A stretch of DNA of 64,000 nucleotides from Bacteroidia bacterium (lineage in GTDB: Bacteria > Bacteroidota > Bacteroidia > Flavobacteriales_E > Vicingaceae), in assembly GCA_030426475.1 (NCBI GenBank), contig JAUHYR010000001.1, positions 62,001 through 126,000 of the forward strand. Reading direction: 5' to 3'. The notes under the pieces were generated by a model, which was given only the letters and a program-made list of their open reading frames with translations, was not told the DNA's origin and did no database searches. The translations under genes and the position numbers were made by a program. Positions 15,935 through 23,004 of this stretch are shown here, piece by piece (within the stretch, counting starts at the first letter, position 1; every line of letters starts with the position of its first letter).

Positions 15935-17809
15935 ATGCAGCTTTTAAAAGGGAATACGCCCAGATGGGTCATTTTTTTTATTGATATTACAGTCTGTGTA
16001 ATTTCTTTGGCTGCAGCTTACCTTATCCGTTTTGACTTTGATGTTCCTCAGATTGAAATTGATAGACTGCATGTAGTTTCGGCATTAATTATTGGTATTC
16101 GTGCACTTAGCTTTTTCTTCGCCAAGACTTATGCAGGGATGATTCGTTATACCGGAACAACCGATGCGCAGAGAATTTTTGTTACACTTATTTTAGGGTC
16201 CATAGCTTTTGGCTTTTGTAATTTGGTGTCTTATTTTACTTGGCACGGAAGATATATTATCCCTCTTTCTATCATTTTAATTGAGTTCTTGGCGACTATG
16301 TTTTTGCTGTTTAGTTACAGAATGGTTGTTAAGGCACTTTACTTTGAAATAAAAAATTCTTCTGAAGAAAAGCAGGAAATCATCATTTTTGGAGCAGGCG
16401 CAGCCGGTGTAATTGCAAAACAAGCTATTGACAGAGATACAAAATCAAAATATAAAGTGGCAGCTTTTGTTGATGATGAAGAAAAAAAGGCAAACAAAAA
16501 AATAGAGGGCGTTACCGTTTATCATTCTTCCAAACTTGAAAAACTTTTTCAAGAAGGCACCATTAAGCATATTATTATCAGTCCCCAAAAAATAAAGTCG
16601 AAAAAGCGAAATACAATTACAGAACTAGCCATTAAGCATGGTGTAAAAGTGTTGAATGTACCTCCTGTTACCAAGTGGACAAATGGTGAACTCAGTTTTA
16701 AGCAAATGAAAAAAGTAAAGATTGAGGATTTACTTGGACGTGATGAAATTAAGCTGAGTAATGATAAAATTATTCAACAGCTAAAAGGAAAAATTATTTT
16801 GGTTACAGGTGCTGCCGGCTCTATTGGCAGTGAACTGGTGAGACAAATTGTAAAATATCAACCTAAAAAAGTAATCTTACTTGACCAAGCAGAATCCGGT
16901 TTGTATGAAGTGGAGTTTGAGTTAAAGCAAGCTGCCCAAGGTCATTTAATGGAGGTGGTGGTTGGCGACATTTGCAATTACGAACGAATGGAAAATCTCT
17001 TTAAAACATTTACTCCTCAAGTTGTTTTTCATGCGGCAGCCTACAAACATGTTCCTTTAATGGAAGAAAACCCCTCTGAAGCAATTCATGTAAATGTTGG
17101 TGGAACCAAAAACTTGGTAGAATTATCGGTGCAAAATGGTGTAGAAAAATTTGTAATGGTTTCTACCGATAAGGCTGTTAATCCAACCAGTGTGATGGGC
17201 GCTTCCAAACGTATTGCTGAAATTTTTGCGCAAAGCACCAATGGAAAGTCAGCAACAAAATTCATTACTACCCGCTTTGGAAATGTGTTGGGTTCAAACG
17301 GTTCGGTTATTCCACTTTTCAGAAAACAAATTGAGCAGGGAGGACCAATTACAGTTACTCACCCAGATATTACAAGATATTTTATGACCATTCCTGAGGC
17401 TTGTCAATTAGTGTTAGAAGCAGGAACAATGGGAGAAGGTGGAGAGATTTTCATTTTTGACATGGGCGAGTCGGTTAAAATTGTGGACTTAGCTAAAAAA
17501 ATGCTGAAGCTTTCGGGTATGGAGTTGGGCAAAGACATACAAATTGTTTATACAGGCTTACGACCCGGAGAAAAGCTTTATGAAGAATTATTAAATAACA
17601 AAGAAAATACGATTTCTACACATCACCCTCAAATTATGGTGGCAAAAGTGAGAGAGTATGAGTTAACAGAAATTACACCTAAAATTGAAGCTTTGGTGAG
17701 TCTTTACCGCCAACAAGACAATTTGGCCATTGTAAAAGCTATGAAAGAATTAGTGCCCGAATACAAAAGCAACAACTCTGTTTATGAGAAGTTGGATGCC
17801 AAAGTGTAA
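15935..17809 (+). CDS. Membrane-bound UDP-sugar 4,6-dehydratase (CapD/WbpM/PglF family)
   Basis: A 624-residue polysaccharide-biosynthesis enzyme. Residues 10-135 hold four membrane helices. A first nucleotide-binding domain starts with FGAGAAG at 152-158, and the catalytic short-chain dehydrogenase domain with TGAAGSIG at 291-298. The active-site stretch reads STDKAVNPTSVMGASK (410-425): Met421 replaces the Tyr of ordinary SDR enzymes, as in the WbpM/PglF subclass that makes UDP-4-keto-6-deoxy-GlcNAc with retention at C5. It supplies precursors for 6-deoxy amino sugars. Promoter element 14 bases upstream; the glycosyltransferase gene diverges from it. Confidence 0.92.
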   Translation: MQLLKGNTPRWVIFFIDITVCVISLAAAYLIRFDFDVPQIEIDRLHVVSALIIGIRALSFFFAKTYAGMIRYTGTTDAQRIFVTLILGSIAFGFCNLVSYFTWHGRYIIPLSIILIEFLATMFLLFSYRMVVKALYFEIKNSSEEKQEIIIFGAGAAGVIAKQAIDRDTKSKYKVAAFVDDEEKKANKKIEGVTVYHSSKLEKLFQEGTIKHIIISPQKIKSKKRNTITELAIKHGVKVLNVPPVTKWTNGELSFKQMKKVKIEDLLGRDEIKLSNDKIIQQLKGKIILVTGAAGSIGSELVRQIVKYQPKKVILLDQAESGLYEVEFELKQAAQGHLMEVVVGDICNYERMENLFKTFTPQVVFHAAAYKHVPLMEENPSEAIHVNVGGTKNLVELSVQNGVEKFVMVSTDKAVNPTSVMGASKRIAEIFAQSTNGKSATKFITTRFGNVLGSNGSVIPLFRKQIEQGGPITVTHPDITRYFMTIPEACQLVLEAGTMGEGGEIFIFDMGESVKIVDLAKKMLKLSGMELGKDIQIVYTGLRPGEKLYEELLNNKENTISTHHPQIMVAKVREYELTEITPKIEALVSLYRQQDNLAIVKAMKELVPEYKSNNSVYEKLDAKV

Positions 17810-17828
17810 TCTAACTCACAGTAATTTC

Positions 17829-17836
17829 TATCTTTG
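17829..17836 (+). promoter_or_regulatory. Promoter element of ndk
   Basis: TATCTTTG, exact TAnnTTTG, 27 bases before the ndk ATG at 17864. No clear -33 TTTG at usual spacing. Confidence 0.5.
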
Positions 17837-17863
17837 CCGCAAATTTTAAAAAAGAAATACAAG

Positions 17864-18286
17864 ATGGCTGGCAACAGAACTTTTACCATGATTAAACCGG
17901 ATGCAGTTGAAAAAAACTATATCGGTGGAATTTTAAAAATGATTAATGATGCAGGATTTAAAATCGTTGCAATGAAATACACTAAACTTAGCAAAGAGCA
18001 AGCTCAAAAATTTTATGAAGTTCATGCAGAGCGTCCATTTTATGGTGAATTGGTAGATTATATGAGCTCTGGTCCAATTGTAGCTGCAGTATTAGAAAAA
18101 GACAATGCAGTAGAAGATTTCAGAAAATTAATTGGTGCCACCGACCCTGCTGAAGCTGCAGAAGGAACCATCAGAAAATCTTACGCTGAGTCAAAAGGAA
18201 AAAATGCAGTACACGGCTCTGATAGTGATGAAAATGCTACCATTGAAAGTAATTTCCATTTTAAGCCGGAAGAAATTTTTGCGTAA
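17864..18286 (+). CDS. ndk: Nucleoside diphosphate kinase
   Basis: A 140-residue NDP kinase that balances nucleoside triphosphates by transferring the gamma phosphate through a histidine. The family start [18 protein letters not shown] and the active-site histidine in KNAVHGSDS are visible. The ATG at 17864 is the right start; the frame extends upstream to 17834, but that would begin inside the promoter element. Its neighbours are nucleotide-sugar genes, yet promoter and terminator suggest that it is a single-gene unit. Confidence 0.96.
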
Positions 18287-18367
18287 TTGAAATGGTCATT
18301 CTGAGCATTTGATATTAAGAGGAGAAAGCAAAGCTTTCGGTTGTATAGTAAATAAGAATGAAAACAT

Positions 18368-18399
18368 TAACCCCATTCATTATTTGAGTGGGTTTTTTT
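18368..18399 (+). terminator. Probable terminator downstream of ndk
   Basis: AACCCCATTCA and TGAGTGGGTT form an imperfect hairpin with a short loop, followed by seven T residues. It lies about 80 bases after the ndk stop. Confidence 0.6.
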
Positions 18400-18424
18400 G
18401 TGCCTTTTCCACAAAATCTTTAGT

Positions 18425-18432
18425 TACATTTG
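18425..18432 (+). promoter_or_regulatory. Promoter of the glycosyltransferase-heptose operon
   Basis: TACATTTG is an exact TAnnTTTG match, with TTTG at 18398-18401 as a -33 candidate, 23 bases upstream and inside the ndk terminator. Only 5 bases separate it from the GTG start at 18438, so the transcript may be almost leaderless. Confidence 0.6.
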
Positions 18433-18437
18433 TTGGC

Positions 18438-19571
18438 GTGAATAAACAAAAGAAGATAGTTATACTTGGAACTGCTTATCCGTTCAGAGGCGGCCTAGCT
18501 TCTTATAACGAGCGATTGGCATTGGCTTTTAATCAAGAAGGTCATCAATGTAAAATAGCTACTTTCACTACTCAGTATCCGGCTTTTTTATTTCCCGGAA
18601 AAACACAATTTTCAGAAAGTCCTGCTCCAAAAAACATTGAAATTACCAGAGCTATAAGCTCCATAAATCCATTTACTTGGTTCTGGTTGGGCAGAAAACT
18701 CAAAAAAGAAAAACCGGATATTTTAATTATAAAATATTGGTTGCCCTTTATGGCTCCTTGCTTTGGAACAGTAGCCAGAATAGTAAAAAAGAACAAACAC
18801 ACTAAAGTAGTTTGCATTATCGATAATATTATTCCGCATGAAAAGCGAATAGGAGACAATGCACTAACAAAGTATTTTGTAAAACCCATAGATGCGTTTT
18901 TGGCAATGAGTGAAAATGTATTGGACGACCTTAAAAAGTTTGATACTACAAAACCCAGAACACTAAATCCGCATCCTGTTTTCGACAATTTTGGAGAGCC
19001 TGTTTCAAAAGAAGAAGCTTGTCAAAAATTAGGCTTAAACCCAAACGAAAAACACATTTTATTTTTTGGAATAATCCGAGATTACAAAGGCTTGGATATT
19101 TTGCTTGAATCATTAAATAACGACAAAGTAAAACAACATAATGTTAAAGTAATTGTGGCGGGAGAGTTTTACAGCAATGAAGAAAAGTATCGTCAAATTA
19201 TTGAAAAAAATAAACTACAAGATCAACTTGTTTTAGCTACTCACTTTATTAAAGATGAAGAAGTTAAATATTATTTCTCTGCGGCAGATGTGGTGGTACA
19301 ACCATACAAACATGCTACTCAAAGTGGAGTTACACAAATTGCCTATCAGTTTGAAAAAGCAATGATAGTTACCAATGTTGGGGGGTTGCCTGAGCTGGTT
19401 CCTCATCTACAAGCTGGATTAGTGGTTGAGCCTAATCCTAAAGAAATTGCCAATGCCATAGACGAATTTTTTAGCGGAGACAAAAACAAGTTTTCATTAG
19501 GTGTAAAAGCCCAAAAAGAAAAGTTCGGATGGGATAAAATGGTGCAGCAACTTTTGAAATTGTGCGAATAA
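18438..19571 (+). CDS. Glycosyltransferase family 4 protein
   Basis: A 377-residue GT-B glycosyltransferase. It begins MNKQKKIVILGTAYPFRGG (GTG start), has the glycine-rich acceptor-side loop GGLASYNE, and a C-terminal donor domain with FFGIIRDYKGLDIL, VVQPYKHATQSG and VTNVGGLPELV, as in GT4 retaining enzymes. The frame is open 43 codons further upstream to 18309, but that segment crosses the ndk terminator and the promoter and is not protein-like. It is immediately upstream of the heptose genes, with 15 bases to hddA, so it may use a heptose or related donor. This is inference. Confidence 0.9.
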   Translation: MNKQKKIVILGTAYPFRGGLASYNERLALAFNQEGHQCKIATFTTQYPAFLFPGKTQFSESPAPKNIEITRAISSINPFTWFWLGRKLKKEKPDILIIKYWLPFMAPCFGTVARIVKKNKHTKVVCIIDNIIPHEKRIGDNALTKYFVKPIDAFLAMSENVLDDLKKFDTTKPRTLNPHPVFDNFGEPVSKEEACQKLGLNPNEKHILFFGIIRDYKGLDILLESLNNDKVKQHNVKVIVAGEFYSNEEKYRQIIEKNKLQDQLVLATHFIKDEEVKYYFSAADVVVQPYKHATQSGVTQIAYQFEKAMIVTNVGGLPELVPHLQAGLVVEPNPKEIANAIDEFFSGDKNKFSLGVKAQKEKFGWDKMVQQLLKLCE

Positions 19572-19586
19572 GCTTTATTTTGCGGT

Positions 19587-20609
19587 ATGATAATTAGAAG
19601 CAGAGCTCCATTACGTTTAGGATTAGCCGGAGGCGGAACTGATGTCAGCCCGTATTCTGACCAATTTGGCGGAGCTATTTTAAATGCAACTATTTCGCTT
19701 CAAACTTATGCTTCTTTAAAACCAACCGATAACGGAAAAATTGTTTTTAGAGCAGTTGACCGAAACGAACATTTTGAAACAGAAGCAACTGATTTTATTG
19801 AACCGAAAGGAGATTTACTATTACACAAAGGCGTTTATAATCGAATTATAAAAGAGTTTTCAAAGCAACCGATGAGCTTTGAACTAACTACTTATTCTGA
19901 CGCTCCGGCAGGTTCCGGGTTGGGAACATCTTCCACTTTAGTAGTGGCTATTTTAGGCGCATTTGTAGAATGGTTAAAATTACCGTTGGGAGAATATGAC
20001 ATTGCTAAACTTGCCTATGATATTGAACGAGAAGATTTAGGTATGGCAGGAGGAAAGCAAGACCAATATGCAGCAACTTTTGGCGGTGTCAACTTTATGG
20101 AGTTTTTACCCAATGATAATGTAATTGTAAATCCACTTAGGGTTAACCCGATTTTTTTAAATGAACTTGAACATAACTTGTTGCTCTACTATACACAGAC
20201 TAGCAGAGTTTCTGCAAATATTATTGAGAAGCAAAGCCAAAATGTAAAAGAAAAAAATACGCAATCGGTTGATGCCATGCACAAATTAAAAGAGCAGGCT
20301 CAAATGATGAAAGAAGCCATGCTTAAAGGGCAGCTAGAAAAGATTGGAAAAATTTTGGATTTTGGCTGGCAAAACAAAAAGCAAATGGCAGAAGGTATCA
20401 GCAACTCTCAAATAGATGAAATATACGATGCTTGTATGAATGCGGGCTCTATTGGTGGAAAAATTTCCGGAGCAGGCGGAGGCGGGTTTATGATTTTTTA
20501 TTGCCCTGAAAACACCAAGCATAAAGTAGCTGAAGTACTAAGTCAATTAGGGGGACAAGTAAAAAAATACCACTTTACAAAAAACGGATTAACTACATGG
20601 ACGATATAG
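19587..20609 (+). CDS. hddA: D-glycero-D-manno-heptose 7-phosphate kinase
   Basis: A 340-residue GHMP-family kinase. It should phosphorylate the anomeric position of heptose 7-phosphate to give the 1,7-bisphosphate, the second step towards GDP-heptose. Visible are the N-terminal RSRAPLRLGLAGGGTD, the ATP-binding loop SDAPAGSGLGTSST, the GGKQDQYAATFGG segment and the C-terminal GKISGAGGGGF. Neighbouring gmhA and hddC-gmhB make the pathway assignment firm. It overlaps gmhA by 13 bases. A near-consensus promoter (TATTTTG) precedes it, but cotranscription with the upstream glycosyltransferase is likely. Confidence 0.92.
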   Translation: MIIRSRAPLRLGLAGGGTDVSPYSDQFGGAILNATISLQTYASLKPTDNGKIVFRAVDRNEHFETEATDFIEPKGDLLLHKGVYNRIIKEFSKQPMSFELTTYSDAPAGSGLGTSSTLVVAILGAFVEWLKLPLGEYDIAKLAYDIEREDLGMAGGKQDQYAATFGGVNFMEFLPNDNVIVNPLRVNPIFLNELEHNLLLYYTQTSRVSANIIEKQSQNVKEKNTQSVDAMHKLKEQAQMMKEAMLKGQLEKIGKILDFGWQNKKQMAEGISNSQIDEIYDACMNAGSIGGKISGAGGGGFMIFYCPENTKHKVAEVLSQLGGQVKKYHFTKNGLTTWTI

Positions 20610-21175
20610 TAACTATAAAAAACAGAATTCAAGCTTCTATTGAGACGAAACAAAAACTACTTGCTAATGAGGCATTGATGCAAACCATTGAAAAAGTAGT
20701 TGAAGAAAGCGTAAAGTGTTTTAAAAATGACGGGAAACTATTGTTTTGTGGTAACGGAGGAAGCGCAGCGGATGCTCAACATTTGTCGGCTGAATTTACA
20801 GGAAGATTTTATAAAGACAGGGAACCGCTTTTTTCTGAAGCATTACATGTAAACACCTCTTACCTTACTGCAGTTGCTAATGATTACTCATACAATGAAA
20901 TTTATTCAAGATTGGTAAAAGGAAAAGGAAGAAAAGGAGACATTTTATTTGGAATATCTACTTCAGGAAATTCCGGAAATATTGTAGAGGCGTTTAAAGT
21001 TTGCAGAGAAAGAGGAATTATAACTGTTGGAATGACAGGAGAGGGTGGCGGTAAGTTGAAAGAGCTTTCTGATTTTCTAATTAATATTCCTTCTACCGAT
21101 ACGCCAAGAATTCAGGAATGTCACATTTTAGTAGGCCACATCATTTGTGAAATGGTGGAAGAAAAAATGTTGTGA
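20597..21175 (+). CDS. gmhA: Phosphoheptose isomerase
   Basis: A 192-residue SIS-domain enzyme that converts sedoheptulose 7-phosphate to D-glycero-D-manno-heptose 7-phosphate, the first step of heptose synthesis. Family motifs include FCGNGGSAADAQHLSAEFTGRF, read here as CGNGGSAADAQH plus LSAEFTGRF, then GISTSGNSGNI, and the C-terminal helix ECHILVGHIICEMVE with a metal-site histidine. It starts inside the 3' end of hddA (13-base overlap) and ends 3 bases before the GNAT gene, so the cluster is translationally linked. Confidence 0.94.
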   Translation: MDDIVTIKNRIQASIETKQKLLANEALMQTIEKVVEESVKCFKNDGKLLFCGNGGSAADAQHLSAEFTGRFYKDREPLFSEALHVNTSYLTAVANDYSYNEIYSRLVKGKGRKGDILFGISTSGNSGNIVEAFKVCRERGIITVGMTGEGGGKLKELSDFLINIPSTDTPRIQECHILVGHIICEMVEEKML

Positions 21176-21178
21176 GTA

Positions 21179-21721
21179 ATGCAAACTGCTATCCCACAAT
21201 TTGAAACAGAACGATTAATTCTTAGAGAGGTTTTAGAAAAAGACATACCTTCTTATAAAAAGAACTTTATAGATTATGATGTTATTAGGTGGTTGTCTTC
21301 AGCTATTCCATGGCCGTATCCTGAAAATGGAGTAGAGGATTTTTTTGAGAACACCCTTCTTCCTAATCAAGGAAAAGATAATTGGGTTTGGGGCATTTTT
21401 TTGAAAGAAGATAACACAGAATTAATAGGTGTAGTTCATTTGTGGAGGGAGGGAAGACCTGAAAATAGAGGGTTTTGGTTAGCAAAAAAGCATTGGAACA
21501 AAGGAATAATGTCGGAAGCGGTTAAACCAGTTCTTAATTACGCCTTTTCCTCTCTTGGCTTTGAAAAGCTTATTTTTGCAAATGCTTTGGGAAATGTTGC
21601 GTCAAGAAAAGTAAAAGAAAAAACAGGCTGCAAATTAATTGAAATTAGAGAAGGAAGTTTTGTAGATAAAGCCTTAAAAAAACAAGAGATTTGGGAGCTT
21701 AAAAAAGAAGATTGGAAGTAA
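21179..21721 (+). CDS. GNAT N-acetyltransferase (RimJ/RimL type)
   Basis: A 180-residue acetyltransferase of the RimJ/RimL-like branch. It opens FETERLILREVLEKD and has RGFWLAKKHWNKGIMSEAV near residues 100-118, the acetyl-CoA pyrophosphate-binding region, and a typical ending RKVKEKTGCKLI. The substrate may be a protein N-terminus, an antibiotic or an amino sugar. Its place between gmhA and hddC-gmhB, with overlaps on the 3' side, suggests a link to sugar modification, but neighbouring position is the only support. Overlaps the next gene by 10 bases. Confidence 0.87.
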   Translation: MQTAIPQFETERLILREVLEKDIPSYKKNFIDYDVIRWLSSAIPWPYPENGVEDFFENTLLPNQGKDNWVWGIFLKEDNTELIGVVHLWREGRPENRGFWLAKKHWNKGIMSEAVKPVLNYAFSSLGFEKLIFANALGNVASRKVKEKTGCKLIEIREGSFVDKALKKQEIWELKKEDWK

Positions 21722-23004
21722 ACTATAAAATACTCATACTAGCAGGAGGATTAGGAACCAGATTAAAATCTGTAGTTTCCTTACCAAAGTGTATGGCACC
21801 CATCCATGATGTTCCGTTTTTAGATTATCAACTTAATTATTTAATTACTCAAGGTATCAGTGAAGTTTTTTTGTCCATTGGTCATCAATCAGAGGTGATA
21901 AAAAAGCATTATGCAAGTCAATTTAAGTCACTACAAATAAATTATATAGAAGAGCCCGAGCCTTTGGGAACAGGCGGAGCGATAAGATTAGCTTTTAAAA
22001 AAATTGGTGCTCAAAGTTTATTAGTTTTAAATGGGGACACTATGTTTCCTATTAATATCAACGATTTAGCAACCTTTCATCAATCAAAAAATGCTGACTG
22101 CACAATTGCTTTAAAACCGCTAAAGAATTTTGAAAGGTATGGAGCAGTGGAAACAAATGAGGAGAAAAGAATTACAGCCTTTCATGAAAAGAAACTGGTT
22201 TCATCAGGCCAAATAAACGCAGGAGTGTATCTGCTTAACGGAAATGTTTTTATGAAACACTGTGCCCAAGAAAAATTTTCCATTGAAAGAGATTTTTTTG
22301 AAGCAAAAGTGCGTGAGTTAAACTTTTATGGATTTTCTACCGATACTTATTTTATAGATATCGGAATACCTGAAGACTATCAAAAAGCACAAAAAGAATT
22401 ACCCGAAATGTTTAATGAAGACGTTTCCGCTAAGCCCAGTATGACGAACCAAAACGCCACATTTGGCGGTGGAGAGAATTCCGTTTTTGCTATTTTAAAA
22501 GAATGGAAAGTAGATAAAAGTTGGACGCTTTTTTTAGATAGAGACGGAGTGATAAATGAAAGAATTGTGGACGGATATGTGAAAACTGTGGAGGAATTCA
22601 TATTTAATGACGGAGTATTAGATACGATAAAAAAGCTTTCTGAAGTTTTTGGAAGAATAGTAGTGGTAACTAATCAGCAAGGAATAGGAAAGGGGTTAAT
22701 GACAGAAGAAGACTTAAAAAAAGTGCATGATTATATGTTGTCGGAAATTGAAAAGGCAGGAGGGAGAATAGACAACATTTATTTTGCACCAAGACTAGCT
22801 TCTCCAACCAATGAATTAAGAAAACCAAATATTGGAATGGCAATACAAGCCCAAAAAGATTTTCCTGAAATTAATTTTTCTAAATCTGTAATGATTGGTG
22901 ATTCATCAAGCGACATAGAGTTTGGTAAAAATGCGGGCATGAAAACCATTTTTGTCGGAAAGGAAAATGACTTGGCGGATGAAGTTATTCCATCACTTAG
23001 CTAG
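21712..23004 (+). CDS. hddC/gmhB: Fused heptose-1-phosphate guanylyltransferase and heptose bisphosphate phosphatase (HddC-GmhB)
   Basis: A 430-residue bifunctional protein. Residues 5-230 are a nucleotidyltransferase with LILAGGLGTRLKSV and PKCMAPI, the NTP-binding signature, and LVLNGDTMFP with the metal-binding Asp. After a linker of about 40 residues, 270-430 form a HAD phosphatase: FLDRDGVINE (Asp276, Asp278), VVVTNQQGIGKG, and GDSSSDIEFG. Together with gmhA and hddA it completes the route to GDP-heptose. The Cys/His zinc loop of classical GmhB is absent (segment FAPRLASPTNELRKP). TTG start at 21712 within the GNAT gene. The end overlaps the convergent DUF6435 gene by 8 bases. Confidence 0.9.
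   Translation: MEVNYKILILAGGLGTRLKSVVSLPKCMAPIHDVPFLDYQLNYLITQGISEVFLSIGHQSEVIKKHYASQFKSLQINYIEEPEPLGTGGAIRLAFKKIGAQSLLVLNGDTMFPININDLATFHQSKNADCTIALKPLKNFERYGAVETNEEKRITAFHEKKLVSSGQINAGVYLLNGNVFMKHCAQEKFSIERDFFEAKVRELNFYGFSTDTYFIDIGIPEDYQKAQKELPEMFNEDVSAKPSMTNQNATFGGGENSVFAILKEWKVDKSWTLFLDRDGVINERIVDGYVKTVEEFIFNDGVLDTIKKLSEVFGRIVVVTNQQGIGKGLMTEEDLKKVHDYMLSEIEKAGGRIDNIYFAPRLASPTNELRKPNIGMAIQAQKDFPEINFSKSVMIGDSSSDIEFGKNAGMKTIFVGKENDLADEVIPSLS

Follow-up and report, generated by a model that had tools for sequence, protein, structure and literature searches.

The 64,000-nucleotide stretch of Bacteroidia bacterium contig JAUHYR010000001.1 analysed here (the window) contains an open reading frame (ORF) at 21712-23004 whose product joins an HddC-type guanylyltransferase to a GmhB-type phosphatase. 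We propose that this hddC-gmhB fusion encodes a GDP-heptose enzyme derived from adjacent hddC and gmhB genes, that it couples the production of both activities and tethers them loosely, and that its phosphatase is probably shared with an ADP-heptose branch. We give this reading a probability of about 0.72. The fusion itself is real and largely ordinary: the architecture is plentiful in genomes, involves known chemistry and is explained by a widespread gene order.

The fused protein and its operon

The ORF is a single continuous frame on the forward (+) strand, as are the other genes of its run. It runs from a TTG at 21712 to a stop at 23004, and encodes 430 amino acids; the assembly of the source genome has the same unbroken frame. 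Residues 6-233 (21727-22410) form the HddC guanylyltransferase domain, which matched PDB entries 6jq8 (E 1.3e-36) and 5xhw (E 2e-36) by sequence. HddC was also the top fold match in Foldseek (E 3.0e-22), and Pfam NTP_transferase matched residues 8-230 (1.6e-30). A linker at residues 234-265 (22411-22506) leads to the GmhB HAD-IIIA phosphatase domain at residues 266-429 (22507-22998), which matched 4pnh (4e-20) and 2gmw (9.9e-19). The HAD-type Pfam models Hydrolase_like and PNK3P matched residues 369-420 and 297-401, respectively. These data support the original prediction that one protein unites a guanylyltransferase and a HAD phosphatase, including the domain assignment and the order of the steps.

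The best NCBIfam model for the N-terminal half was HddC (NF049965), at 217.8 bits against a cut-off of 300; the relatives L137, L138 and L054 also fell below this cut-off (234-249 bits). The second-best model was a mannose-1-phosphate guanylyltransferase (NF052502). The C-terminal half scored below the cut-offs of three GmhB-type models, PRK08942 (NF006506; 126.5 bits, cut-off 178), NF050049 (111.4 bits, cut-off 250) and TIGR00213 (97.6 bits, cut-off 149.6), and exceeded that of TIGR01656, the HAD-IIIA/histidinol-phosphatase model (117.4 bits, cut-off 84.15).

The residues expected of both active sites were present. According to PMC6981941, Glu80 in the EXXPLGTGGA motif of Yersinia HddC holds the guanine, and Lys24 and Asp210 lie near the ligand and metal. 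The window's domain has Glu81 (in EPEPLGTGGA), Lys26 and Asp216. Conservation was counted over alignments of 124 HddC rows and 127 phosphatase rows; the three HddC columns were conserved in 123, 124 and 124 rows, respectively. The phosphatase domain has Asp276, Asp278, Thr320, Asn321, Lys371 and Asp397. The columns of the Asp-x-Asp pair (Asp276 and Asp278), Asn321 and Lys371 were invariant in all 127 rows, the window included, and the Thr320 column held 112 Thr and 15 Ser.

Solved GmhB enzymes also carry a Cys/His cluster, which we take to bind zinc. The Cys-x-His...Cys-x-Cys positions of 4pnh and 2gmw aligned with Ala359, Arg361, Asn367 and Leu369 in the window. We considered the loss of this cluster as a trait specific to the window and rejected it, since almost every one of these relatives has a degenerate cluster. 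More specifically, the first place was Cys in 94 of the 127 rows, the second His in 7 and the fourth Cys in 29; gaps filled 125 rows of the third column, which could therefore not be counted. L011 alone carried the four letters across the counted columns, the third of these being mostly gaps.

The fusion is the last gene of a run ordered GT4-hddA-gmhA-GNAT-hddC/gmhB. As had been predicted, it is preceded by hddA (19587-20609; NF049969, 442.4 bits, cut-off 600), which encodes a GHMP-type (alpha-anomer) kinase, and by gmhA (20597-21175; TIGR00441, 195.5 bits, cut-off 209.45), which encodes sedoheptulose 7-phosphate isomerase. All four functions, gmhA, hddA, gmhB and hddC, are thereby present together at 19587-23004. 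Since the pathway proteins all score below their NCBIfam equivalog cut-offs, we assign the substrates from the best-scoring models together with this operon context. In the proposed pathway, GmhA would yield heptose 7-phosphate and HddA would add an alpha-configured phosphate at C1. The 7-phosphate would then be removed by the C-terminal HAD domain, and the N-terminal domain would add GMP from GTP to the resulting 1-phosphate.

Distribution and origin of the fusion

Fusions were counted only after a check on fetched DNA. The open_frame_aa value from the genome search could not be relied on to detect fusion: G091, G017 and G032 were given as open frames of 432, 408 and 417 amino acids, yet have stops between the domains. 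Among 40 candidates checked on fetched DNA, 31 were fused and nine had separate genes. The DNA fetched for G577, G620, G694, G188, G357 and G736 likewise held no fusion. At three of these loci (L100, L101 and L102, in G694, G620 and G188), GmhB frames had been reported as 505-695 amino acids, and the DNA gave ordinary ORFs of 179-191 amino acids, which shows that open_frame_aa is no measure of protein length.

Within the window's order, 21 of the 46 genomes had a match at E ≤ 1e-45, and the fusion occurred in two, the window's and G435. Of the 394 genomes sampled from family f3, which belongs to the window's class, 362 had a match at E ≤ 1e-38, and fusions were verified in at least 36 of the 394 (G269, G115, G796, G1042 and G849, plus the 31 fetched candidates), a lower bound from candidates picked by their long open frames. 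Verified fusions beyond the window thus number 37 genomes, one of them in its own family, and they occur in two families of its class. The fusion is therefore common rather than unusual, and the claim of novelty in the original prediction largely falls. The finding that all 395 genomes sampled across the phylum matched one of the two domains says little, because both superfamilies are universal.

Alphaproteobacterial plasmids (Azospirillum, Niveispirillum and Methylosinus) also encode the two-domain architecture, as single coding sequences annotated 'HAD-IIIA family hydrolase'. Of 744 plasmid records with a match, 70 aligned with 80% or more of the query at a single site, in some cases across two adjacent genes. 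Three of the alphaproteobacterial fused proteins scored 97-130 bits against the HddC model, and neither hddA nor gmhA was annotated within ∼4 kb of the alphaproteobacterial fused genes. Given these weak scores and the lack of such neighbours, the substrate of these proteins may differ.

Gene order suggests how the fusion arose. Relatives have hddC and gmhB as near neighbours (L110-L114, L116-L135), as overlapping open frames (L032, L033, L078-L082), or as in-frame neighbours with stops between them (L003, L012, L021). As the genes are adjacent or overlapping in so many relatives, fusion is a short step. We propose that the fusion arose from this common hddC-gmhB order, and that its effect would most likely be equal, coupled production and loose tethering of both enzymes rather than a closed channel.

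To characterize the history of each domain, we used trees of the 124 HddC and 127 GmhB rows, including 38 fused rows; groups were named after the trees had been seen. On the GmhB tree, the window's phosphatase domain fell in a 45-row set with 43 separate genes and G435 (SH-aLRT branch support 99), apart from the main f3 fusions. A single clade of all 38 fused rows was rejected on this tree by the approximately unbiased test (p-AU 3.84e-05). With L115 and L054 freed, the test that joined the window to the main f3 fusions was borderline (p 0.055), and on the HddC tree one clade for the fused rows was not rejected (p 0.088). The minimum number of label changes was five on the HddC tree, one of them forced by starred branches, and eight on the GmhB tree, four of them so forced. 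The gap between domain matches was ∼32 residues in the window, 31 in L115 and ∼5 in most f3 fusions. Overall, fusion or splitting has probably happened repeatedly, and the data suggest an independent origin for the window's fusion.

Heptose branches, domain arrangement and alternative explanations

The original prediction took the alpha-anomer kinase gene hddA to point to GDP-heptose rather than ADP-heptose. The first part stands, in that the operon points to GDP-heptose; the exclusion of ADP-heptose does not, as the window's genome (G000) also has genes of that branch. These encode RfaE-II (185.4 bits) and HldD (376.3 bits), both over their cut-offs, an RfaE-I-like kinase just under its cut-off (325.9 bits, cut-off 345) and three Glyco_transf_9 proteins. 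The genome contains one GmhA and one TIGR01656 (GmhB-type) phosphatase, which is the fused one. The presence of ADP-branch genes alongside a single GmhA and a single GmhB-type phosphatase suggests that the fused phosphatase probably serves both branches, an arrangement that would be the mirror image of that in C. jejuni. The genes for HldD, RfaE-II and the RfaE-I-like kinase lie singly, scattered over contigs, and form no ADP-heptose cluster (G000 contigs C2, C57, C68 and C32; L104-L107). The contig with the fusion also has a Glyco_transf_9 gene, ∼30 kb upstream of it.

Of 24 genomes with the fusion, 21 lacked a stand-alone GmhB-length frame above the cut-off and three (G1106, G868 and G1127) had one; HisNB-length frames occurred in 17 of the 24. 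According to PMC8204981 and PMC4380924, the GmhB of Bacteroides thetaiotaomicron, BT_0477, likewise from Bacteroidota, prefers the alpha-anomer bisphosphate (Wang et al. 2010), and other GmhBs prefer the beta anomer. Judged from its sequence, the fused phosphatase domain could favour either anomer. More tentatively, and with the odds against it, one fused protein that accepts both anomers might divide the heptose supply between ADP-heptose and a GDP-sugar glycan. If so, the same partitioning would hold in up to 21 of the 24 fused genomes, provided that those also make ADP-heptose.

The fusion could instead place both active sites such that heptose 1-phosphate passes directly between them, as the original prediction had suggested. 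Two consecutive steps do lie in one chain, and such fusions are seen in two families of the class. Nevertheless, according to an AlphaFold2 model run on a 36-row alignment, the protein has a mean predicted local distance difference test score (pLDDT) of 91.9 and a predicted template modelling score (pTM) of 0.63, with the linker at 237-254 predicted to be disordered (pLDDT < 50). The model is consistent with two well-formed domains that have no confident mutual arrangement; it lends no support to a fixed channel and would not disprove transient contact. The variable gap between the domain matches (from ∼5 to ∼32 residues) and the occurrence of the domains as separate genes in most relatives also argue against channelling. 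Moreover, because the fused phosphatase is the sole GmhB-type phosphatase found in the genome, its product may in part be drawn off into the ADP branch. Channelling of the 1-phosphate is thus unsupported, and we consider it improbable.

Two further explanations concern the fusion's existence in this genome and its substrate. An assembly or sequencing indel could have joined two ordinary neighbouring genes: the assembly has 139 contigs, gmhB could begin at an in-frame ATG at 22441, and a TAA in the +2 frame at 22413-22415 falls just where same-family relatives end hddC (C-termini ELPNLFL, ELPGLLS and ELQSF), so one base separates fused from unfused here. By contrast, the TTT at the suspect site is rather short to provoke an indel error, the position at which GmhB starts in relatives has no in-frame start codon here, and a separate GmhB would have ∼20 extra N-terminal residues. 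With fusions verified in 37 other genomes, one of the same family, we judge an artefact unlikely, and the fusion's existence elsewhere is independent of this genome. That the pair acts on another sugar bisphosphate appears quite unlikely as well. Although the scores are under the equivalog cut-offs and the second-best model is one for mannose 1-phosphate, the HddC model is clearly ahead of it (217.8 versus 156.3 bits), gmhA and hddA lie in the same run, and the closest solved structure is HddC.

The reading of the fusion as a loosely tethered GDP-heptose enzyme with a shared phosphatase also faces several points that weigh against it. All four pathway proteins miss their equivalog cut-offs, so that another sugar substrate is possible as judged from the sequences, and the RfaE-I-like kinase falls below its own, which bears on the putative ADP branch. 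In a genome that is 97.66% complete, a second phosphatase could be missing from the assembly or could belong to another HAD family. Finally, the low pTM of the predicted model would not disprove a functional interface, for example in an oligomer.

Neighbouring genes and relation to known systems

The first gene of the run (18396-19571, from an internal in-frame start of the ORF at 18309-19571) encodes a GT4-type glycosyltransferase (Pfam Glycos_transf_1, 9.4e-21). It is a plausible user of the activated heptose, to judge from its location 15 bases ahead of hddA. A GNAT acetyltransferase gene (21179-21721; Acetyltransf_3, 1.3e-26), which the original prediction did not mention, separates gmhA from the fusion, whose TTG start it overlaps by 10 bases. 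It is not known as a member of the heptose pathway, and no GNAT gene of this kind was found at the other loci scanned. Upstream of the heptose genes, 15935-18286 contains a polysaccharide-type dehydratase gene (Polysacc_synt_2) and a second ORF that we take to resemble a nucleoside diphosphate kinase; any link to GTP supply is only a guess.

The N-terminal domain resembles HddC of Yersinia pseudotuberculosis (6JQ8, 5XHW) in its fold and EXXPLGTGGA motif, and this protein was the top match by both sequence and fold. It is a stand-alone protein of 225 residues with no phosphatase domain (PMC6981941). The C-terminal domain shares its HAD-IIIA fold family and catalytic residues with the GmhB phosphatases 2GMW and 4PNH, but is fused and lacks the aligned Cys/His cluster. 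Fusions from f3 (such as L137, L138 and L006) and the alphaproteobacterial proteins (such as WP_136701517.1) have the same domain order and ∼408-460 amino acids; unlike in the window, the f3 linkers are mostly short. FKP of Bacteroides fragilis, a fucokinase/GDP-fucose pyrophosphorylase, is likewise a Bacteroidota enzyme joining two GDP-sugar steps, but has a kinase, not a phosphatase, joined to the nucleotidyltransferase (PMC6468028).

In the open-access library searched, we found no description of an hddC-gmhB fusion. The present data document that, within one bacterial family, neighbouring hddC and gmhB genes frequently end up fused, and they offer one polypeptide with which GDP-heptose might be made in vitro. 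A small question follows: whether a single fused phosphatase supplies the GDP- as well as the ADP-heptose branch.
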